Shown in pieces: positions 3,048 to 60,063 of a stretch of DNA of 64,000 bases. Made by a program: the position numbers and the translations under genes. The notes below the pieces were generated by a model that saw only the letters and a list, made by a program, of their open reading frames with translations, searched no databases and was not told where the DNA came from. Positions within the stretch are counted from its first letter, which is position 1. Every line of letters starts with the position of its first letter. Source of the stretch: Loxodes magnus. Its lineage: Eukaryota; Ciliophora; Karyorelictea; Loxodida; Loxodidae. The stretch spans positions 1 to 64,000 of the forward strand of contig CAMPDV010001601.1 of NCBI GenBank assembly GCA_946699065.1, read 5' to 3'.

Positions 3048-4083
3048 TTTTTAGAAAACTCTTAAGAGCGAGAAGCCACATTTTAGGGAAAGTATCTCTA
3101 CTTCATTTTAAGTATGAAATTCTGCCTAACTTATGCTACTAAAAGTTAATAAACAAGATCAGTTATGACCAAAGTAAAGGTATTTCTTTAATATTTTTTA
3201 GATTAAGTCCTTACTGGTCACACTTCAGTTGTTTGCTCGGTATCCATATCAAGTGACCTGAATTGAATTGTATCAGGTTCAGCATATCCTGAATATTCGA
3301 TAAAGATCTGGAACTTCCAGACAGGTGCTCTCTTAAGAACTATAACAGGACATACTTCTGAAGTTTTATAGGTAGTAAATCTCCCCTGACTCTAGCTATA
3401 TCGTATCAGCATCTGGTGATAGAACGATAAAGATATGAAACTTATAGACTGGTGCTCTCATCAGAATTATAACGGGGTATATTTCTCCTATTACTTCGGT
3501 AGTAATCTCCCTTGACTCTAGGTATATAGTATCGGCATCTAGAGATACAACCATAAAGATCTGAAATTTCCTCAATGGTGATTCTCCAAGAACTATAATG
3601 GGACATACTGATATAGTTAGATCGGTAGTAATCTCCTTTGACTCTAGATATATTATATCGGGATCTTGGATAACACTATAAAGATTTGGGATTTTCTAGA
3701 CTGGCCAGCTTGTGCGAACTCTTATTGGGCATTCAGGTTCTGTTTTATCGGTGATAGTGTCTAAGGATAATAGATATATAATATCTGGTTCAGATGACAG
3801 TACTATTAAGATATGGGATTTCTCTTCTGGTTAGTGTATTCGTACTCTCCAAGGTCACGTAGATGATGTACGTAGTATCCAGTTAAGTGTTGATTCAAGT
3901 GTAATATTTTCTGGTTCATGGGATAAAACAATCAAGATCTGGAACTTTGATAGAGGTGAGTGTATATAGACTTTGTAAGGGGATACATCGTAGATAAATT
4001 CTATAGCATTGAGTGTTGATAATAGATGGTTGGTATCGGGGAGGATTTGACAATACTGTGAGAAAGTGGAGGATTTCGAGTGA
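3048..4083 (+). pseudogene. WD40-repeat protein, copy 1 (seven repeats, decayed)
   Basis: A short N-terminal exon (L-R-A-R-S-H-I-L-G-K ... S-Y-D-Q-S-K) is joined through a 22 nt intron at 3180-3201 to seven WD40 repeats. Each repeat has the form G-H-T-x-x-V-x-S-V ... S-x-D-S-x-Y-I-V-S-G-S ... T-I-K-I-W-N-F-Q-T-G. Seven repeats make one beta-propeller, a protein-binding scaffold. TAG reads as Gln in N-L-Q-T-G, where repeat 1 has CAG. TGA stands at Trp positions at 3264-3266, 3436-3438 and 3562-3564. Single-base indels break the frame near 3380 (extra A) and 3670 (missing G), so this copy is not translatable as it stands. The end aligns with R-K-W-R-I-S-S in the sister copies. Parts of two other copies lie on the minus strand at 20.2 and 52.0 kb. 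Confidence 0.9.
3180..3201 (+). other. 22 nt intron in WD40 copy 1
   Basis: Begins GTATTT and ends TTTTTTAG. Removing it joins the conserved upstream frame to the first WD40 repeat; keeping it would shift the frame. The same element is 21 nt in copies 2 (21081-21101) and 3 (52745-52765), where it starts GTATTT and ends TTTTAG or TTTCAG. Length variation with conserved ends, plus frame restoration in this copy, supports a real mini-intron. Confidence 0.75.
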
Positions 4084-20200: not shown

Positions 20201-21235
20201 TCAACTTGAAACTCTCCACTTTCTTATCATCTTGTCAATTCCTCCCGATACCAACCATCTATTATCAACACTCAATGCTATAGAATTTATGAAATTTGTG
20301 TGCCCTTACAAAGTCTATATACACTCACCCTTATCAAAGTTCCAGATCTTGATTGCTTTATCCCATGAACAAGAAAAGATAACACTTGAATCAACACTTA
20401 ACTGAATACTACGTACAGCATCTACGTGACCTTGAAGAGTACGAATACACTAACCAGAAGAGAAGTCCCATATCTTAATAGTACTGTCCCGAGAACCAGA
20501 TATGATATACCTATTATCCTTAGACACTATCACCGATAAAACTCAGGCCTGAATGCCCAGTAAGAGTTCGTTCAAGTTGACCTGTCTAGAAATCCCAGAT
20601 CTTTATAGTGTTATCCCAAGAATCCCGATATAATATATCTAGAGTCAAAGGAGATTACTACCGATCTAACTATATCAGTATGTCCCATTATAGTTCTTAT
20701 GAGAGTTCCATTGTGGAAATTTCAGATCTTTATGGAGTAGTCAGAAGATCCTGATACGATATAGCTAGAGTCATAGGCGATTACTACCGATCAAACTGTA
20801 GAAGTATGTCCCGTTATAGTTCTTAGGAGGAGCACCAGTCTATAAATTCCAGATCTTTATGGTTTTATCAGCAGATCCTGATACTATATAGCTAGAGTCT
20901 GGGGATATTACTACCGAGTTAACATAATCAGTATGTCCTGTTATAGTTCTTGAAGAGTACCTGTCTGGAAGTTCCAGATTTTTATCGACTTTTCAGGCCA
21001 TCCAGAACCTGATACAATTCAATTCAGGTCACTTGATATAGCTACCGATGAAACAGATGAAGTGTCATAAATGATCTAGTCTAAAAATATTAAAGAAATA
21101 CCTTTACTTTAGTCATAACTGATCTTGTTTATTAGCTTTTAGTAGCATAAGTTAGTCAGAATTTCATACTTAAAATGAAGTAGAGATATTTTCCCTAGGA
21201 TGTGACTTCTCGCCCTTAAGAGTTTTCTTAAAAAA
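20201..21235 (-). pseudogene. WD40-repeat protein, copy 2 (decayed)
   Basis: Inverted homologue of copy 1 with the same N-terminal exon (R-A-R-S-H-I-L-G-K-I-S-L-L-H-F), mini-intron (21081-21101) and seven repeats. It shares the TGA in L-N-[TGA]-I-V-S-G-S and adds one at I-K-I-[TGA]-N-F and one at S-T-V-[TGA]-S-V, all Trp-type positions. It ends R-K-W-R-V-S-S then TGA at 20201-20203. Indels break the frame, for example an extra T in the fourth repeat and a lost base after the first. The duplicated block extends through the 5' flank to about 21.6 kb. Confidence 0.88.
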
Positions 21236-25955: not shown

Positions 25956-27459
25956 ATTATAATAATCTTATTTTAATAATACTCTACTATTATTTGTTGC
26001 TAAATATCACTTTTTAAGTGACTTAAGGTTAAGTAAATAATTGTTGTTTAGATAGTTCTTTTATATGCTTTAAATTTACGAACATTTTGTTAAATTCTTT
26101 AATTCTAAATATGTTTAAATTTAAATAATAACAAAAATTAATTATAGTTACGCTATGTTTATTAGGTTAATCTCTTTAAATTGACTCGTATATGTTCTTA
26201 TAAAATTTCAGCTGTTTTCTGCAAAGTTGCTCATAGATTTTTATTCTTCTTTTTCTTCGATCAGTTTTTAAAATCATTCCTTTTTTCCTCTTCTAGTTCT
26301 AATAATTTTTATAAAAGCTTAACTAGAACAGATTTATTACTTATTTATATTTTGTATATTTTAACTTTTATATGATACTATATTATACTTTTAAAATCTT
26401 CTTATCATTTTCAAGTTTTCCTCATTAATTACAATTGTTTGTAACATTTACTAGTAACTGACTTTATTTTCTGTCTAAAGTACCTTAATTAAACTATTTT
26501 TATATAATAAGACGAAAATAATTTATGGTTGTACTTAAGATTTGAAATGCTAGGAGAAATAAATAACTCTAATTAAAATTATAATTAGTAGTAAAGCATA
26601 TGCAAATGGGGTACTTAAAGAGTACATTTCATCGTAATAGTATATAACTAGATAAATATTACTAATAATATAATGAAATAAAATAGAAGTTAGAGATAGA
26701 GGATAGAAATATAAAGGAGTTATAAAAAATAATAGTTGATGTATGAATTAGAATATAAAATAGGGTTATAAAGACTATATAGTGTGTTATAATATATATA
26801 AGGAAAATGAATAAATATGAAGTAGTAGTTTATAATAAGAATAATAATATTAAATAAACTAAATTCTTATAACTGTTTTAATCAAATTATTACATTTTAT
26901 AGATTCTAAATTACATTAATTATTTATTAAAAATTAAAAGAATAAGAGTAACAATATCATAGTAACACTTTAGCACTTTATTACATTTGCGAACATAACT
27001 AAATCAAACTAACTAACTACATGCTTATTTTACTATTAATCATACTAAGTATTTTATAATTCATTAAACACACATTTTATAGAGAGTAGTTTAAATAATT
27101 ACATATTATCTTTCTATTCAAAAATTACTAAAGATATTTAAAAAAGAATAATAGAAAGGATATAAAATCGACACTTCTAAACATATTTTAAGAATAAAAG
27201 AACTTTTATCAAGAAATCTAATACATCAGTAAAAGATTCTAATTATTATCAAAATATTACTTAAATTTTTAATTCAAACATCTCCTTAATGAGAATCATT
27301 TTTTCATTAATAAAGTGAAAAAGTAAGAAAATTAGCAAATTTCTTAAAATATAACGCTAATATACTTAATAACTTTAAAATATATGAATTTGTTAAATCA
27401 AAAATTAATTAATAATCAAACAATAATTTAAGATAAATAATTAAATTTGTTAAATGTTA
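25956..27459. other. AT-rich DNA, no gene seen
   Basis: No supported feature. Purine-rich stretches at 26.55-26.83 kb have no clear period. Confidence 0.4.
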
Positions 27460-28498
27460 TTTTCATCTCCACTTACATCAAAAATTACACTCTATAATCA
27501 AAAACTTACTTATCAGAAAATATTTACATCCTAAAATAGAAAAAAAACTACCTAATATAGATAATTTAATATTAATCCTTACTATTACATTCTTTAATCA
27601 ATTATATTAGGCATTACTTTCTTTTAAAATCAATTATTACCCCCTATAAATATTACTATTATTACATTCTATATCATTTTATTACTGACTAAACTTAAAT
27701 ATTACAAGCTCATATAAAAAATTAAAAGTTTAAATAAATGCAAACCATTTTATAATTATTTCTTACAATCAAAAATTAAATAAATACCTGAAGTAGATTC
27801 TTACCTCCTGAGGTAATTTTATACCCTCTAATAATAAAAAAAAGATACCAACTGTAATAGTTTTAAATACAAACTGTAAATAAAAACTATCTTACATCTA
27901 TAAATATTTAAAATATATTACCATCTATAAATATTTAAAGTATCTTACGTTCTATTTTAAATATAAATACCTTCTTATTTTAACTTTTACCTCCTTTATT
28001 TGTTATTTTTACTTGCTATACATTTAATAATTTACTTTCTGGATTTGTTATATTACCCTTTTAATATTATTATTTTACAATCTTCTTTATATTTTACATC
28101 CTATTTTTAAATTTTACTCCCTTTCTTAGTGTTCTTACAATCTTATTTATTTTTTATTACATTCTTAAATTTAATTTTTTACTTTCTGCTTTTAAAGTGT
28201 TACTCACTTATGATGAATATATTACAAACTTTTTTAAACTTTACCTCATGTACATTTATTTCTAACTTTTTTTGAAGTTATTTTTACCTTTTTTAATTTT
28301 TCTTACTTTCTCCTTTTTTTTGTTATTTATTACTTTCTAATTTTTATTAGTATTTTACATTCTATTGTTATATTATTTACCATATTATTCTCTAATTATC
28401 TCGAAAAATTATTTTTTATTTAATACTTTCTGTTTTAATATTTACCTTCTAAATTTTATATTATTAACTTACCTCCTAAATTTATATTAATTACAATT
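27460..28498 (-). repeat. Tandem array of intron-like GTA...AG units with 3 nt spacers
   Basis: Read on the minus strand, the region is a chain of AT-rich units of mostly 16-26 nt that begin GTAA or GTAT and end AG. Each is followed by exactly three bases (AAG, AAA, AAT, GAT, ATT, CAA, GAG, AAC, TTG, AGG and so on) before the next GTA. I count about 28 three-base spacers. Sample units are GTAAATATTAAAACAG, GTAAAATTTAAAAATAG, GTAATATAACAAATCCAG and GTATAAAATTACCTCAG. It starts right after the ubiquitin-like domain of the gene upstream. The plus-strand appearance is a degenerate TTAC-N3-CT repeat about every 20 nt. It could be an array of mini-introns with one-codon exons, a satellite, or an array of protein-binding sites. 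Confidence 0.8.
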
Positions 28499-29221
28499 CC
28501 TCAATTTTAGGTCTAAATAAACTTCCTCTTCATTCTTCATTTTATCTATTCTATGTTAACTATCTAGTTTTTCTTATTTTCTATAAAGTTCATAAAAATC
28601 AGTGTCAATTCCTTCTAGTCTTTTTACTTTTTATTTCAGTTATTCAATTGTTTCTCCTTCCTCTACTGTTAAATTTATTTCTTCTTTATTAAAACTTAAA
28701 ATCTTAACTTTTATTGGTTTCAGTCTTTGCTAATAAGATAACTCAATTTTAGTTTCTTCAAGATGAAGTTATTTCTAATCTTATTTACTTTCACTTGCTT
28801 AGTTTTTTTAGCTTATTAGGTTTTATGGATCATCGAAGGAAATTTTTTTGCACTTTCCTTTCGAGCACTGGTTATAGCCTTCTTTTTAATACTCTTCAAG
28901 CGCACAAGTTTAGCATATTTTATGTTTACAAGAAAGGGTTACGGAAACGATTATTTAATAGTCGATATGAGCTAAGTATGAGCTACACCTGTTAGATTCA
29001 GCCGAATTGATTATAATTAAAGTGAATTAAAGTAAATAGTTTAAATCTATTTATGTTTAATATTCTAAACAAAAGCTTAAGAAAATAATAAGTTATTAAT
29101 AATTAGATAGTTATTATATAGTCTAAATCTATTATTCAGAAGCTTATCTAAATCTAGAATTTATATATTAACTTAATTAAACATTTAGCTATTCTTTAAT
29201 TTATTTAAATCCATATAACAT
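28499..29221 (-). CDS. RING-like plus ubiquitin-like domain protein
   Basis: ATG at 29219-29221 opens a minus-strand frame with TAA/TAG as Gln and no TGA down to 27710. Residues 1-70 are Gln-rich and helical-looking. A partial RING follows: one upstream Cys (N-R-C-S-S-Y), then C-K-H-K-I-C-Q-T-C (28904-28930) and C-S-K-G-K-C (28850-28867), which fits C-x-H-x2-C-x2-C ... C. About 72 residues (28499-28714) then match ubiquitin along their length: I-K-V-K-I-L ... I-N-L-T-V-E-E-G-E-T-I-E-Q-L-K, L-E-G-I-D, and V-Y-L-D-L-K-L-R at the end. There is no terminal Gly-Gly, so it is a fused domain and not conjugated ubiquitin. RING plus UBL suggests an E3-type function. The C-terminus beyond 28499 depends on how the array at 27.5-28.5 kb is read. 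The first RING Cys pair is incomplete. Confidence 0.75.
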
Positions 29222-29302
29222 AATAAAATTTATTAAAGTGACTTCACCTTTATTTAATTTGCCACTAATTAGTCCATGAATTTTAAGATGTAAATGAATC
29301 GT

Positions 29303-30042
29303 TCAGGTCTTCTTCAGAGCTTGCTTCTTATATTGCATATCGTGTTGTACAGATTTAACCTTTCTTGATCTTAGGAATTTTTTTTCTTCAATCTCAATTA
29401 GGTCCCAACATCTTTCTCGTCCTTCTTTTTTGAGCATTTACTATATCCAATAGTAATTAATCTCCATCGTATAATTTTTTCTTGTTAAGTCATCCTTCTG
29501 GAGAACAGTGTAATTTTGTCATATTATTTCATATCTTTCAAAAATTATTAAATTCTTGCGTCTTCTGAAAATAACAGCATCTTTTAAAGATATGTCCAAC
29601 CTTTTAGCAATAATAACATATTTTTCACAATATTTCGAATTATGTCCTATTTTTAAGCATTTTTAGCATTTTTGGAATTTTAAAAAATTGACAATTTTTT
29701 TCCGATCCGAAAAAGAATTTAAATTTGTTCTTCTATTATCATAGGATCATTATTAAGATTAGAATTGTATGGTTTATTAATTTCTACTATTTTTTGCTCC
29801 GTTTTTTCCAGTTTTTTATTACCTTGCAACATCAAGGCTTTAGTGCTTATTTCCGTTTTTAACCATTAATTTTCTTTTTATAATTATTGCACAGTAAAAG
29901 TTAGAGAATCTAATCGTTAAATCAAGCCTAGAAGTGATTGTTGCATTTTTTTGTTTTCCGCTTCTAGGGAGTATATTTCGATTAGAGAGTTTTATTATTC
30001 GATTTCCTGCTAGTTTTTGGTCGATTATTTCTTAAGATCCAT
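29303..30042 (-). pseudogene. LINE ORF1 (gag-like), coiled coil plus CCHC knuckle, copy A
   Basis: ATG at 30040-30042 (M-D-L-K-K-Q-S-T-K-N) starts a coiled coil of about 100 residues, including L-E-A-E-N-K-K-M-Q-Q-S-L-L. After a frame change near 29.72 kb comes a perfect zinc knuckle, C-Q-K-C-L-K-I-G-H-N-S-K-Y-C (minus strand, about 29627-29676), where Q is TAA. The frame then runs to TGA 29303-29305 with one internal TGA at 29519-29521 (Y-E-I-I-[TGA]-Q-N-Y-T). Copy B has TGA at the same place. ORF1 proteins of non-LTR elements bind their RNA. The frame change between coil and knuckle could be a frameshift or a mini-intron. Confidence 0.8.
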
Positions 30043-30312
30043 TTTATTTATATATAATATCAACTACTACCTATCTATACTTATGTGCTCTATCTTTTAG
30101 AACTTTAATGCAATCAAAATGCTACTATCATAGCTTTTGTATACTAATAATAGTTATCTATTTATAAAGCTTTTACTTATGATAGGAAGGATATATTTTT
30201 AGTATAATTAGTAGCTTTTTTAAAAGGATTATTTTGCTTCCTTAATTATTTCCAAGATTTTTCTACTAAGCTCGCTTTTTTAATTTAGCCTTTTAATTAG
30301 AAGACTTATATA

Positions 30313-31170
30313 TCATGTCCAAATTTATACCGCATAGATGGGTGAGAAAATTAAAAGATAAGCCCATTTAAAGTTAAATGATTTTAGAGAGATGTTAGTT
30401 TATTTAGAAGACTGATATGCAAGTTAGTTTAGTATCGTAACTAGAAGTAAAGACTTTTAGGAATAATAAAGGGCAAATCTTATAATTTAAGATAAAATTA
30501 TACTTGGAATGCTTTATGCTTATCTAATAATAACGATTGTATAAACTACCATCCAACAGTAGCATGTGATGTCTAACTAGATAGTCATAGTAATGAGAAG
30601 AATAATTAATAAATAGAAGGTAGTTTAAGTAGAAGTAAGCGTAGAATCTATTTTATATATTTTTATTTCTTAAAATATAAAACCCATTATACAATCATTC
30701 TGGAAAGCAACTCTGCTAAGTAATGTCGAAACTTCACATATTAGTTGGCTGCTCTTAATATAGCAAACATCGTTCTTCTTATATTTTGTAGCTTAGCATC
30801 TCTTTAATTTGCCATTTCTTTTTATCAAGAAAGAAGTATATTTTGCTTGCTTTACTCTTGCTACCTCAGCGTTTATATTATACCTCAAAGTCTTTATGGA
30901 AATTGAAATCTTCCTAATTAATCATAAATCTTGCTCAAGGAAAGGAAGCTAAAAATTCGAATAATCTATTCTATCTGCCACTAATTTAGCTGAAGCTCCC
31001 GAAGGTAAGAATTTTTCCAAATATATTATGGAATCGTTAGCTTCTTCCTACTATAGGAGGAGAAGGAAGAGATTGCTCTTGCTTTGCATTTACGCTACTA
31101 CTATCTAGCCCTCGATGAAAATTGAGTCATGCTTGTCTTTATCTGTAATGCTATTATCGTTACCTTTCAT
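30313..31170 (-). CDS. Hypothetical membrane-protein-like ORF with one in-frame TGA
   Basis: ATG at 31168-31170 opens a 286-codon frame ending at TGA 30313-30315, interrupted only by TGA at 30922-30924 (E-Q-D-L-[TGA]-L-I-R-K-I-S). Composition stays protein-like on both sides of that codon. The N-terminal half is soluble (Y-M-K-G-N-D-N-S-I-T-D-K-D-K; F-L-P-S-G-A-S-A-K-L-V-A-D). The C-terminal half has hydrophobic stretches such as F-Y-L-L-I-I-L-L-I-T-M-T-I and W-M-V-V-Y-T-I-V-I-I that could span a membrane. I recognise no family. It lies between two LINE ORF1 copies (minus at 29.3 kb, plus at 31.3 kb) and could be element-borne. Confidence 0.45.
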
Positions 31171-31329
31171 GTATTTAACCAAATTTTCTATCGATGAAGG
31201 AATTCTCTATACTTTACCTCTTTAATAATTTCAGATCCACATTAAGGATAAACTACTTTATATCAGCTGAATTAATTAACTTTTACATCATAAAAGTAAG
31301 GCGAAATAGCTAAATTAATTTGCTTTCAG

Positions 31330-31550
31330 CGATTCAGGAACTTGGAGTTCTTTGTTTATTATTCCTTTATAAGAAAAGGCTTATGGTGGAGAATAATTAC
31401 TATTAGATATAGTAAATGCTCAAAAAGAAGAACCAAATAAAAGTTTGGGCCAAAATGAGATTGGAGCAAGATTACCGTGGTCAAGAAAGGTTAAATTTGC
31501 ACAAGTCGATACTCAATAGAAGAAGTGAGCTCTAAAGAAGACTCTAATGA
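31330..31550 (+). pseudogene. LINE ORF1 C-terminal fragment, copy C
   Basis: A plus-strand frame with N-N-Y-Y-Q-I-Q-Q-M-L-K-K-K and G-Q-E-R-L-N-L-H-K-S ends at TGA 31548-31550. It matches the C-terminal part of copies A (minus, 29.3-29.5 kb; N-Y-Y-W-I-Q-Q-M-L-K-K-E) and B (minus, 41.1-41.4 kb; N-Y-I-Q-I-Q-Q-M-L-K-K-E, G-Q-E-R-L-N-L-R-K-S). No knuckle is present, so only the tail of the element inserted or survived. Confidence 0.7.
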
Positions 31551-51996: not shown

Positions 51997-52900
51997 TCAA
52001 CTCGCAATCTTCCATTTTCTAACAGTATTGTCCAATGCTCCAGATACTAACCATCTATTGTCACTACTCAAAGCTATAGAATATATATCTAATGTATGCC
52101 CTTTTAAAGTCTCGATACACTCACCCGTACTAAAGTTCCATATCTTGATTGTACTATCCACAGAAAATATAACACTTGAATCGGTACTTAACTGAATTTT
52201 AAGTACAACACTTGCGCGACCTTGAAGAGTACGAATTAACTAACCAGTTGAGAAGTTTCATATCTTAATTGATTTTTCCCACAAACCTGATACTATATAC
52301 TTGATATCTAAAGACGCAATTACAATGAAATTGAGTTTGTATGCCCAGAAAGAGTTCAATCAAGCTGACCAGTCTGGAAATCCCAGATCTTTATCGAATT
52401 ATCTGCAGATGCTGATATGATTCATTTCTAGTCAGGGGAGATAACTATCGATCTAACTGAATCAGTATGTCCTACCAAAGTTCTTAGGAGGGTGCCGGTC
52501 TGGAAATCCCATATCTTGATGGTTTTATCATTAGATGCTGATATGATTCATTTCTAGTTAGAGGAGATAATTACCGATCAAACATAAGAAGTATGTCCAG
52601 TCAAATTTCTTAGGAGAGAACCAGTTTGGAAATTCCAGATCTTTATTGTATAGTCAGGATAGCCTGAACCAGATACAATTCAATTCAAGTCACTTGATAT
52701 GTCTACCGATTAAACAGAGGAGAGGTGGCCAGTGATGACTTAGTCTGAAAATATTAAAGAAATACCTTTACTTTTGTCATATTTGATCTTATTAACAATT
52801 TTTTAGAAGCGTAAATTTGGTAAAATTTCATATTTAAATAGAAGAAGTGGTATTCTTCCAAGGGAATCATTTTTTTATCTTAAGAGTTTTCGCAAAAGCA
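51997..52900 (-). pseudogene. WD40-repeat protein, copy 3 (decayed)
   Basis: Same gene as copies 1 and 2: N-terminal exon (L-R-K-L-L-R ... F-K-Y-E-I-L-P-N-L), 21 nt intron at 52745-52765, then WD40 repeats. TGA appears at Trp-type positions in L-N-[TGA]-I-V-S-G-S (shared by all three copies), S-Y-V-[TGA]-S-V, two repeats of Q-K-[TGA]-I-I-S-A-S, and I-K-I-[TGA]-N-F. One TGA replaces an Arg codon (Q-L-D-[TGA]-T-L). It ends R-K-W-K-I-A-S then TGA 51997-51999. At least one repeat has lost bases (around 52140-52160). The homologous block extends to about 53.26 kb. Confidence 0.88.
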
Positions 52901-56679: not shown

Positions 56680-57345
56680 TCACTCATAACCTTCAAAAAA
56701 TTCAGGCTCTTCATTTGCGTAAATTCTACCATCAGCTCTGTTTATATGGGTATAAATAATACTAGGATTGAATTCACCACCACATTCGAAGCACCAATGT
56801 GCTCCACATTAGCAAGTGATATGATTACATCCTGCGTAACGAATTTTTGGAACTTAACAAGCTGGACACTTTTTAATTTAGTTGTAAGGTGATTAATTCT
56901 CTAACTCTGATTCTCTCAGAATTCGCTCAGCCTCTAATCTATCAACTTCACATTATTCACACTCGAAATTTTAAAATCTTGGTGCATAACCAGCTCCGCA
57001 AGCCCGATCTCCACATGGTTTAACTAAATTACATCTCACAAACCAAGCATAATATTTAGTCTAGTCCATTGGAAGTAAATTTCGAGTAAGAGTTAATGCC
57101 ACATCCCACCACCTTTTGATCACCTTTGGACCTGGTGTTCTACAGCAAAACATACAAAAACAGTGTCTAAGATTTGATAACATAACCAATTTTATTTTCT
57201 CCATATCATTTTTTACCACATATATCACAGATAACTCTATCACATCCAGTTCTTCCACATGCTCTACCAAGTTTATCGTTTGATTTAGGTTCACAACATA
57301 AATCGCAATCTAATGGTTGAATATAATGAGTATTATTGTATTATT
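56680..57345 (-). pseudogene. RBR-type E3 ubiquitin ligase zinc-finger region
   Basis: On the minus strand, D-C-D-L-C-C-E-P ... A-C-G-R-T-G-C-D-R-V-I-C-D-I-C-G-K-K (about 57330-57209) is a RING1-like Cys array. A middle Cys-rich stretch follows (V-R-C-N-L-V-K-P-C-G-D-R-A-C-G-A-G-Y). It ends with a clean RING2: K-C-P-A-C-Q-V-P-K-I-R-Y-A-G-C-N-H-I-T-C, then C-Q-C-G-A-H-W-C-F-E-C-G-G (Q is TAA), and TGA at 56680-56682. RING2 of this family holds the catalytic Cys that accepts ubiquitin; here the G-C-N-H-x2-C core is intact. The RING1 frame has TGA at 57206-57208 in C-G-K-K-[TGA]-Y-G, a Trp-type position, and a frame change near 57.15-57.18 kb. From 57294 inward a single open frame covers the middle and RING2. 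Upstream it is fused to the duplicated kinase segment. Confidence 0.85.
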
Positions 57346-57885
57346 TTACCATATTGGCATAATCTAGATATAGAAAAGATGTTTAAAAGATTTTATGATT
57401 AAGATTTTATAGACTATAAATTTAATAAACTTAAATTATATTACTACTAGCATCCTCTTGTTATTTAGCTAAAATAATTGGGACATTCTTAAGGTATTTC
57501 CTCTCTTCTTTTATTTAAAACTTAATGTAATGCAACATAAATCTCTCATATTTCAAAGAGGAATTACTCTTGATACTATTTCCCAAACTACCATTCCAAA
57601 AACATATATATCCAATTATTTGCTGTACTTAGGTATAATTACAAGTAACTCTAAAGACATTCAACATATAGTTTCTGCTTATTAAGTAAAACTTTAAAAT
57701 TTAGATTCTGTTTTTATTTTAGATAAGTTAAAATCAATAATTTCAGCTTATAATTAGAATCCAATAGTTTATTATTACATTTTAAATCTCTATGATTACT
57801 TGCAAATAATAAATATACTGAATCCCTATACTATATCTAAACTTATCTTATACCTTACTCCCATTAAATTTTTTGTCTAGATTTG
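57336..57885 (-). pseudogene. Protein kinase, C-terminal half, inverted partial copy
   Basis: The minus strand reads H-R-D-L-K-C-N-N-K-L-L-D-S with the canonical catalytic-loop His-Arg-Asp, then I-D-F-N-L-S-K (DFG changed to DFN, after a one-base shift). An activation segment I-C-[TGA]-M-S-L-E-L-L follows, with TGA (57661-57663) at the invariant Trp of the W-M-A-P-E motif, and then F-G-M-V-V-W-E-I-V-S-R-V-I-P. It is about 550 bp long and near-identical to 59139-59690 in reverse. The N-lobe is missing. It runs directly into the RBR gene. Confidence 0.8.
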
Positions 57886-58870
57886 TCTTAAATACTCTAG
57901 AAAGTTTAATATTTATCATTTTAAGCCTTCTAATTCCAACTTCCTGCGACTAAAATCTGCCGATTATTATTTCTTCACTTTTGCATTTAATTGTCCCATA
58001 ATTTTATCTTAGAGCATTATTCTTGATCTTTATCTATAGAATCTCGAAATACTTATGTCTTAATATCTCCTTACTTCTTAATCCCTCTTTCTCTGATGAA
58101 GGTGATTGACTTATAAAATCCTTTCTTTAGCTCATTTTTTAAAAATTTGATCTTCTTTGTTTATTCAATTTTACAGTTCTTCCAACTTTAACTTCTCATT
58201 TCTTTCTCAAGTTTGGGTTTCTTCTTTTTAAGCTACTAATTAAGCATTACAGCATATTTATCAACGATCTTTACTTAGATAATAAACAATATTCTATCAA
58301 GTTACTTTCTTTCTAGATCTAGTAAGATCTTAGATCTTTTAAGTCTTCATTGAAGAACTTTACAGGCCTATTATGGATACATAAGGGTCTACCTCTTTAC
58401 TTCTAGTTAGCTTAGTAGTTATAAGTTTACTGCTTAATAGTTAAAGAATTGCTTTTGAATTAATAAGGGAAAAAGTATCTTTTATGTTTAGTACTCTTAA
58501 AATCTAAAATATAAAGAGGAAAAGAAGCTGTATTAATATTATTGCTTGCTAAAGAAAATATTTTACAAGCAGTATTAACAATATTATGAAGATATCATTA
58601 AGAAATATTATTAAAACCTATTTAATTTTTCTCATTAAAAGAAATAATTATCCGATGTTATGAATGAAAATATTCTAAAAAGGATTGGAGCTGTAGAATG
58701 GTAAGCGTTTAGATAAGCGAATACTTTTAAGAAATATTAAGAGAAAAAGGAATTTAGAAATAATAAGAAGCCTTCTAGAGAAACTCCATATATTTGGTAA
58801 GTTTATTTTTGGCTTAAAATATTTATCCTTCAAAGCAGGCCTACAATTAATTATTTCATCTGGAGTAAAA
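57886..58870. other. Spacer between the inverted kinase copies
   Basis: AT-rich; no supported gene. Coding-like scraps exist near 58.68-58.87 kb on the plus strand, possibly upstream kinase sequence. Confidence 0.35.
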
Positions 58871-58879
58871 ATATTTAAT

Positions 58880-59690
58880 GCAATTCATTAGAGCATAGAA
58901 TTTTTTAGCAAGTAGTTAAGTAGAGTGATACTGAGGAAAACTAACTAAGAATGATACAGTTATAAAGGATTTACTAAACTAAAATTAATAAATGATATAG
59001 CTAATGAAGATTTATAAGAACTTAGTATAATGGAAAAGCTTTTTCATCCAAATGTAGTTTTATTATATGGGTAAAGTCCTTCTCTAATGAGTTTGGCTGT
59101 GGAGTTAGTGTAATAATCATTGTATAAAATTTTGCATGGTAGACAAAAAATATAATGGGAGTAAGGTATAAGATAAGTTTAGATATAGTATAGGGATTCA
59201 GTATATTTATGATTTGCAAGTAATTATAGAGACTTAAAATGTAATAATAAACTATTGGATTCTAATTATAAGCTGAAATCAGTAATTTCAGCTTATATAA
59301 AATAAAAACAGAATCTAAATTTTAAAGTTTTACTTAATAAGCAGAAACTAAATGTTGAATGTCTTTAGAGTTGCTTGTAATTATACCTAAGTACAGCAAA
59401 TAATTGGATATATATGTTTTTGGAATGGCAGTTTGGGAAATAGTATCAAGAGTAATTCCTCTTTGAAATATGAGAGATTTATGTTGTATTACATTAAGTT
59501 TTAAATAAAAGAAGAGAGGAAATACCTTAAGAATGTCCCAATTATTTTAGCTAAATAACAAGAGGATGCTAGTAGTAATATAATTTAAGTAGATTAAATT
59601 TATAGTCTATAAAATCTTAATCATAAAATCTTTTAAATATCTTTTCTATATCTAGATTATGCCAATATGGTAAAATAATACAATAATAAT
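58880..59690 (+). pseudogene. Protein kinase (tyrosine kinase-like type), fuller copy
   Basis: The plus strand reads Y-S-Y-K-G-F-T-K, E-L-S-I-M-E-K-L-F-H-P-N-V-V-L-L-Y-G (to about 59071), L-A-V-E-L-V-Q-Q-S-L-Y-K-I-L-H-G and I-Q-W-E-Q-G-I-R. The catalytic loop follows as Y-R-D-L-K-C-N-N (59225; His changed to Tyr), then C-[TGA]-M-S-L-E-L-L (TGA 59356-59358) and F-G-M-A-V-W-E-I-V-S-R-V-I-P-L-[TGA]-N-M. The pattern fits TKL/Raf-like kinases. Frameshifts near 59.19 and 59.28 kb and the loss of the catalytic His indicate decay. The right end also carries the first codons that precede the RBR gene in the other copy. Confidence 0.85.
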
Positions 59691-60063
59691 CACTTAAAGG
59701 TTCTACATAAATTTTCACGCTTTCGATTAATATTTAAGGAATATCAAAAGAATGATAAATTATTATATTTTTATAGATGGAAATAAATAAAAAAAAGCTG
59801 AATTAGAGAAGCGCATAATTGTACACTTTATAGATTTTTTATTTATCATCCAGAAAATTTATTTAGTAGAATGTGAGTATTAGTTTAAAATATCTTAAAA
59901 ATAACTAGCATTATTTATTTATAAGTTAACTTTTATAATAATTAAATATAGCTTTAGAATAAAAACTTTAAATTATTGATATATCATTTTTCTTAATAAA
60001 CAAGATTTGAAATATATATAAATAGCTTTATAACTAAACTAGATATTTAGATAATAGTTCATA

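Follow-up and report, generated by a model that had tools for sequence, protein, structure and literature searches.

Chains of putative one-codon exons with hypervariable codons between near-identical introns in a RING and ubiquitin-like gene family of the ciliate Loxodes magnus

TRIM E3 ligases, including the finTRIMs of fish, contain a RING finger, a coiled coil, and a variable C-terminal part, and have undergone large expansions. The gene family of Loxodes magnus described here resembles them in its RING, its coiled-coil-like stretch, its variable C-terminus, and its expansion, but has a ubiquitin-like domain in place of a B-box (none among the Pfam matches of predicted protein P0002 at E up to 1) and a tail that is not B30.2. 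TAL effector repeats are bacterial, coding, and intronless, and carry variable di-residues that follow a known DNA code; they share with the Loxodes arrays the combination of near-identical repeats and one hypervariable spot. Introner elements spread to many genes. The array introns of Loxodes are like them, in the accounts drawn on, in being many near-identical introns in a genome, but in the arrays examined they occupy a single position within a single gene family. Microexons are single small exons and are not known to form chains of tens, although the 3-bp microexon of RPS24, as far as its excerpted description goes, matches the 3-nt exon size proposed below.

The closest evolutionary parallel is a coding minisatellite. 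In the sections of PMC8925151 used here, the PRDM9 repeats are described as evolving mainly by unequal crossing-over and conversion, with much of the diversity at few codons. The likeness to the Loxodes arrays lies in near-alike tandem units that differ at few codons, in fast turnover, and in concerted evolution plus positive selection (PMC8925151). In PRDM9, however, the rest of the unit is itself coding (an 84-bp zinc finger), whereas in Loxodes it is a putative intron, the variable codon is the whole exon, and the arrays belong to a large family. The remainder of the Loxodes unit does not look like protein-domain coding sequence, given units of 31 nt, frame breaks, and in-frame TGA if it is left unspliced. 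The sea urchin Sp185/333 genes are likewise a large and highly diverse family, and the portion of PMC1988830 covered here holds nothing that points to one-codon exons. Among the titles and abstract openings searched, none describes arrays of one-codon exons. We know of no described gene family with tens of consecutive single-codon exons, nor of one with near-identical introns between hypervariable codons.

The window is the whole 64,000-nt stretch of L. magnus DNA that was analyzed. The first-pass annotation had drawn attention to a chain of GTAA/GTAT...AG units at three-base spacing on its minus strand, and this chain is borne out by the counts. From 28472 to 27472 the strand reads as GTA...AG segments of the sizes given in Table 1, separated by gaps that are mostly exactly 3 nt; a parse favoring 3-nt gaps yields 39 segments, with 31 of the 38 gaps at 3 nt. 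The motif AG-N3-GTA occurs 32 times within 27460-28498, compared with a mean of 2.45 and a maximum of 9 in 2000 dinucleotide shuffles. Over the 1120 nt around the array, AG-N3-GTA is likewise counted 32 times; spacings of 1, 2, 4, and 5 nt between AG and GTA occur 3, 1, 0, and 1 times, and spacing 0 occurs 9 times, partly as a result of codons that finish with AG (GAG and AAG, for example). In the remaining window, both strands taken together, spacing 3 is found 88 times and the other spacings from 0 to 25 are found 70-107 times, so that 3 is not special there. The 3-nt spacing is specific to the array's place in the window, and a chance origin of the array is ruled out by the shuffles and the spacing counts. 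Rfam and tRNA searches of the 64-kb window returned nothing.

Karyorelicts use TAA and TAG as sense codons and have TGA at Trp positions. The window conforms to this usage, with TGA at the Trp place of WD40 repeats (IKI-TGA-NF); because TGA is also a Trp codon here, a TGA-free open frame in the window says little. Three WD40-repeat gene regions with 126-127 nt units and TGA at Trp positions lie at 3300-3685, 20580-20985, and 52368-52643, and near the minus-strand region at 20580 there is a 21-nt intron-like GTATTTCTTTAATATTTTTAG (21081-21101) together with apparent frame breaks. Elsewhere in the window, the ORF 56680-57549 (minus strand) has a weak match, below gathering, to an IBR domain as found in RBR-type ubiquitin ligases, and the ORFs 57326-58096 (plus) and 58830-59708 (minus) have translations that are near-identical by eye, forming an inverted duplication around 58.3 kb.

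The copy in the window is not the form in which the family is best read. A paralogue, L046 (contig C10), is 83-85% identical to the window across gene and array. Its start codon is present, its RING is complete, and its first exon closes in phase 0 at the chain's second donor. Alignment to this paralogue reveals the losses collected in Table 1, as well as broken-looking units at 28426-28381 and 28078-28039; by eye, 27787-27706 and 27588-27552 look broken too. The segment that had been annotated as the first intron of the chain (28494-28476) corresponds to exon sequence in intact L046. To judge from the lost start codon, cysteine, and acceptors and the frameshift, the window copy is a decayed family member, and the idea that it is a working gene is not supported. 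The region that L046 has in common with the window, checked in L046, showed no terminal inverted repeats at its ends, and a transposon bounded by such repeats was rejected on that ground. Since the flanks of close members are alike over the whole 1.5 kb examined upstream, a mobile unit of another kind is still conceivable.

Table 1. Features of the array locus in the window (positions of the 64,000-nt stretch)
Feature	Position	Strand	Basis or description
Decayed putative mini-intron array	27472..28472	minus	introns mostly 16-26 nt, exons mostly 3 nt
Two units with the intron type expanded in relatives (GTAAGATATTTTAAATATTTATAG-like)	27898..27948	minus	
Stretch homologous to the L046 region	26309..31363	minus	79-85% identity in three blocks; unmatched gap 29222-30036
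RING-finger-like region, decayed	28817..28990	minus	29% identity to P0002 over 58 aa; weak RING profile matches below gathering
Start codon of paralogue, lost	29005-29003	minus	alignment to L046
Zinc-ligand cysteine codon, changed	28978-28976	minus	alignment to L046
Ubiquitin-like domain	28500..28714	minus	PF00240, E 6e-5 to 2e-4, below gathering score
First 'intron' of the first-pass annotation, exon in intact L046	28476..28494	minus	first exon of L046 spans it, phase 0
One-nucleotide deletion, frameshift	28481/28480	minus	alignment to L046
Splice acceptor AG lost relative to paralogue	28408..28409	minus	alignment to L046
Splice acceptor AG lost relative to paralogue	28060..28061	minus	alignment to L046

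Intact relatives are numerous. Genome-wide searches were made in an uncollapsed assembly of 705.7 Mb in 7843 contigs; the k-mer genome size of L. magnus is given as 261 Mbp in the part of PMC11441545 used here. A protein query from L009 gave at least 112 matches, which were all of those scored among 2559 first-look candidates, and one from L046 gave at least 151 matches with 150 of 2845 candidates scored; the two lists may overlap, and haplotype copies and assembly duplicates inflate these counts. The architecture is a C3HC4 RING, a ubiquitin-like domain, and a 3' array, and in larger members a long coiled-coil-like stretch is visible by eye between the two domains. The RING ligands C7, C10, C26, H28, C31, C34, C47, and C52 are invariant in 13 of 13 aligned proteins. 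The ubiquitin-like domain of P0002 matches PF00240 above gathering (E 6.6e-7) and structure 6l0l (E 1.3e-6). The array is a constant companion, being present in 30/30 members examined from the L009 query and 14/14 from the L046 query. Conversely, all five arrays (L009 and L046-L049) among the matches listed for C1-C9 and part of C10, where an array means three or more overlapping matches, lie 3' of a RING and ubiquitin-like gene, these domains having been read by eye in L047-L049. Thus, judged by its predicted proteins, this is a large Loxodes gene family with RING, ubiquitin-like domain, and array.

The pattern itself is abundant. A chain of three GTAA starts, GTAA-N(12-26)-AG-N3-GTAA-N(12-26)-AG-N3-GTAA, matches the genome 52,323 times compared with 1,501 for the reversed control, and the same chain with 4-nt exons matches 9,142 times with 1,220 for its reversed control. 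By eye, over half of the listed places of the 4-nt control pattern are A/G-rich satellites such as GTAAGTAGTTAGTTTTAAAAGTAAAGTAAAGAAGAAAAG, found among the matches listed at G000:C2 4081-214862 and in C43, C50, and C55. Another family of repeats occupies G000:C3 187774-334781; its AGACAGTAATAATGATGGAATATGCTAAGATTGTA-like units recur at distances of, for example, 255 or 1020 nt, and it is unlike the arrays. Each examined member contains 3 to 43 chain matches in the DNA examined (the window 11), from which the number of arrays in the uncollapsed assembly is estimated to be of the order of a thousand or more. Counting the exact 24-nt intron of one subfamily, then any triplet, then GTAAGATA gives 23,332 occurrences and 0 control matches; a 28-nt intron followed by a triplet and GTAA occurs 528 times genome-wide.

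In these relatives the arrays comprise about 30 to more than 50 putative mini-introns, mostly of 16-36 nt, between exons that are nearly all 3 nt and in phase 0; chains of up to 49 consecutive introns fit a GT-AG parse, into which the GT-AG ends are built. The first exon closes in phase 0 in 27 of 28 parsed members, the exception being L034, and in 14 of 14 members of the L016-L029 subfamily. In that subfamily it is followed by a 26-27 nt intron, a 6-nt exon, and then a GTAAG intron. The 5' single codons are GAT, GGG/GGA/GAA, ATA, ACT (ACC, GCT), and ATT, with the variable codons next, and the 3' codons after the variable stretch are ATC, GTG/GTC, AAT/TAT, GGG, and GAC followed by TGATGA. Within a subfamily these tail flanks stay constant. 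An identical parse of the 5' constant units is obtained in 29 of 30 members, and one 5' Gly codon remains Gly in 27/29. For pairs drawn between subfamilies (14 x 12 members), five of the six 5' constant introns differ in length by a non-multiple of three in 0.74-1.00 of pairs, and the sixth does so in 0.21.

Whole arrays could be parsed within their loci for six subfamily-1 members (L016, L018, L024, L025, L026, and L027), with exons of 3 nt and one of 6 nt; in the other 24 of 30 members the array exceeds the locus end, breaks the parser, or is unparsed from the start (L043, L044). All six reach TGATGA in phase 0 once 29-42 introns are removed, compared with two of six unspliced, and their unspliced frames hold 5-11 TGA. 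TGA counts per reading frame were also considered as a phase test and are uninformative. The proposal of mini-introns with one-codon exons, originally made for the window copy, is well supported, more by the intact relatives, with their 3-nt exons, in-frame tandem stop, and codons that avoid splice sites, than by the window. It is probably right for the family rather than for the decayed copy. Useful retained or partly spliced products, also suggested for the window copy, gain no support, and the retained frame of the six whole arrays contains the 5-11 TGA given above.

The avoidance concerns the variable codons. In 30 members of subfamilies 1, 2, and kin, 13 of 964 variable array codons end in TA, CA, GT, or GC (GGC in 11 cases), compared with 2191 of 10560 first-exon codons; with synonyms only, for amino acids with both kinds of codon, the figures are 13/448 and 1950/4570. 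TTA, CTA, TCA, CCA, GCA, ATA, and GTA, common in first exons, are absent from those variable units. Together with the next GT, triplets with these endings would make TAG/CAG acceptors, or would place a GT/GC donor two bases ahead of the proper one. The avoidance is weaker in the 24-nt subfamily (29/446 array codons against 575/2492 first-exon codons). Units within an array are non-independent, so that P values make these contrasts look stronger than they are.

Between the putative introns, the triplets are hypervariable. Per-site diversity in 44 arrays, calculated on the 1320 units whose intron is of modal length with no more than 5 differences, is 0.43-0.71 in triplets (median 0.61) and 0-0.10 in introns (median 0.033), and this holds in 44/44 arrays. 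An array uses 4-12 triplet types, and 45 of the 64 possible triplets are seen overall; in 7/44 arrays, introns of the same length (other lengths left out) do not vary at all, yet 5-7 triplet types occur. The GC content is 35.5% in triplets and 21.4% in introns. Composition of the tail differs by subfamily and gene, which replaces the fixed Lys/Asn/Arg-rich tail first proposed. In L032-L042, L044, and L045, none of the 462 variable codons counted has T in the middle, which removes Leu, Ile, Met, Phe, and Val from the tally; L016-L031 are unlike them in this respect.

The strings of codons change quickly. Arrays contain unit-level super-repeats, for example (AAG TCG CTT)n in L028 and L029, and gains or losses of single units. 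The codon strings of L028 and L029, whose first exons are 0.1% apart, have a likeness of 0.79 against 0.56 when shuffled, and those of L061 and L063 a likeness of 0.73 against 0.56. In contrast, the strings of L062 and L063 (exon 1 0.2% apart) and of L061 and L062 (exon 1 0.6%, upstream 0.1% apart) are no closer than shuffled ones. Among the 12 members compared, the median pair is 1.1% apart and has values of 0.39 observed and 0.40 shuffled. Some subfamily-1 pairs 1.7-2.3% apart lie slightly above the shuffled level (0.62 and 0.49 in one such case), partly because constant 3' codons were left in. Triplet types per array resemble random draws from the subfamily pool in three groups, and the candidate explanation that triplets arise by single steps within one array finds no excess over such draws. 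The triplet patterns do not look adenine-directed, the point of comparison being a diversity-generating retroelement. In the L052-L063 arrays one intron variant, GTAAGTC, comes after TGG (7 of 9 genes) and after GGG (4 of 7 genes); this tie may reflect linkage or compensation at the donor site. Taken together, the pool-like draws and an intron variant that moves with TGG and GGG point to an exchange of units between genes.

Some of the results that follow fit splicing, and several sit less easily with it. Introns of L. magnus mapped by RNA-seq have a mean of 19.3 bp and a mode of 17 bp, 93% being 25 bp or shorter; most are 16-25 nt, multiples of three are depleted, and TGA is depleted near the stop (PMC11441545, sections drawn on here). 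The terms ubiquitin, RING, gene family, expanded, hypervariable, and multigene do not occur in the main text of PMC11441545. The GT-AG form agrees with the RNA-seq-mapped introns; introns of the window array and of the 24-nt subfamily fit the species size, and those of 28 and 30 nt lie in its tail. Three subfamilies have main introns, at 24, 28, and 30 nt, that are long for a mode of 17, and 24 and 30 are multiples of three, unlike the general depletion. TGA accounts for 78 of 964 array codons compared with 2 of 10560 first-exon codons, and Trp would make 14% of the tail. In 4 of 6 whole arrays a TGA lies no more than 20 codons from the stop, against the depletion in L. magnus. For the 24-nt subfamily, an intronless copy of tail codons had 0 genome matches at up to 3 mismatches.

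The 'constant' units add a further difficulty. In the window subfamily their codons differ by 0.169 between clades and their intron interiors by 0.069, which is the reverse of ordinary exons, although 6 of 13 codons do not vary among the 14 genes. Comparison of subfamilies 1 and 2 gives identities of 0.62-0.69 for three constant single codons and 0.72-0.90 for introns in gap-permissive alignments. Farther apart, in one 9-unit run, L047 and L052 have 0.74 identity in codons and 0.66 in introns, for which the shuffled level is about 0.6; comparison with L046 over one 9-unit run gives 0.63 and 0.66. Purifying selection on constant codons, considered as proof of exons, is unsupported at close range and weakly supported farther away. 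TGA near the stop and codons that outpace introns between near relatives run against the reading.

Among the other explanations, a process of directed mutation confined to the 3 nt that separate introns, or one that inserts non-templated triplets on copying, accounts directly for triplets near saturation between identical introns, including the seven arrays with invariant introns, for the shuffled-like strings of the otherwise close L061 and L062, and for codons that outpace introns even in constant units. We consider it unlikely, as within-array triplets are no nearer by single steps than random pool draws, which fits units taken from a shared pool, as certain intron variants accompany the same triplets in different genes, and as only 45/64 triplets are seen. 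A satellite or array of protein-binding sites with core AG-N3-GTAA, lying downstream of the gene and not spliced, was the rival raised in the first-pass annotation as non-genic repeat DNA. A core at variable spacing, homogenized repeats, and 23,332 copies of one unit are what a satellite would offer, but all five arrays among the matches listed adjoin a RING and ubiquitin-like gene, all six whole arrays close in frame, splice-disturbing triplets are avoided synonymously, and varied triplets between identical flanks would have no reason; we regard this account as improbable.

Two further readings concern what the array makes. If it were translated unspliced, a TAL-effector-like repeat protein with one variable residue per repeat would result; the 27-nt unit of the 24-nt subfamily is readable as a 9-residue repeat with 1-6 in-frame TGA in the 1.5 kb examined. 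The 31-nt units of another subfamily, the 23-nt introns that break the frame within 24-nt-subfamily arrays, and the TGA in the unspliced frames of the six whole subfamily-1 arrays make this very improbable. Alternatively, the introns could be the product, as many copies of one small RNA of 24-30 nt with triplets as neutral spacers. Ciliates have small RNAs of similar size, and near-identical introns in tens of copies per gene would suit such a source; yet subfamilies 1 and 2 have very different main introns although their first exons share 86% identity in the pairs examined, and the triplets, GC-richer than introns and subfamily-specific in make-up, do not look neutral in composition. We give this reading a low probability as well.

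The reading we favor, at a probability of about 0.7, is a RING/ubiquitin-like gene family with a one-codon-exon tail, in which the alike introns serve as the substrate of recombination and selection favors varied tails. The family, its array, the phase, the homogeneity of the predicted introns, the variability of the codons, and the duplications and losses of units are established at the level of sequence. Each mini-intron would be spliced out, probably 5' to 3' by intron definition. The middle of the tail would behave as a minisatellite whose unit is a codon plus an intron; recombination within near-identical introns would duplicate, lose, or swap whole codons while keeping the frame, as the super-repeats and shared units suggest. 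As proposed by analogy with PRDM9, selection for varied tails would keep codons apart while recombination keeps introns alike. The tail would probably be the variable recognition or substrate-binding part of a putative RING-type ubiquitin ligase, with a role in defence, self-recognition, or genome conflict; this is the weakest step, a guess from domain content and family behavior.

A bolder extension, which we hold only tentatively, is a machine for peptide diversity at two levels. At the DNA level, recombination would rewrite the tail codon by codon while flanks change by well under 1%; at the RNA level, splicing could skip codons. As exons are almost all 3 nt and all intron ends would be compatible, any donor could join any later acceptor in frame, giving many in-frame peptides. 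If true, this would amount to a repertoire of immune or recognition type that a single-celled organism makes by splicing.

One-codon exons in chains of 30-50 would stretch accepted limits of exon size and spliceosome crowding, and could be missed by standard gene prediction and read mapping with minimum exon sizes. The arrangement would also solve a conflict, in that recombination needs identical DNA and protein diversity needs different DNA: with identity placed in introns and diversity in single codons, every recombination event would be in frame. The size of the family, its fast rewriting, and its RING and ubiquitin-like domains suggest that this karyorelict ciliate has a recognition system.
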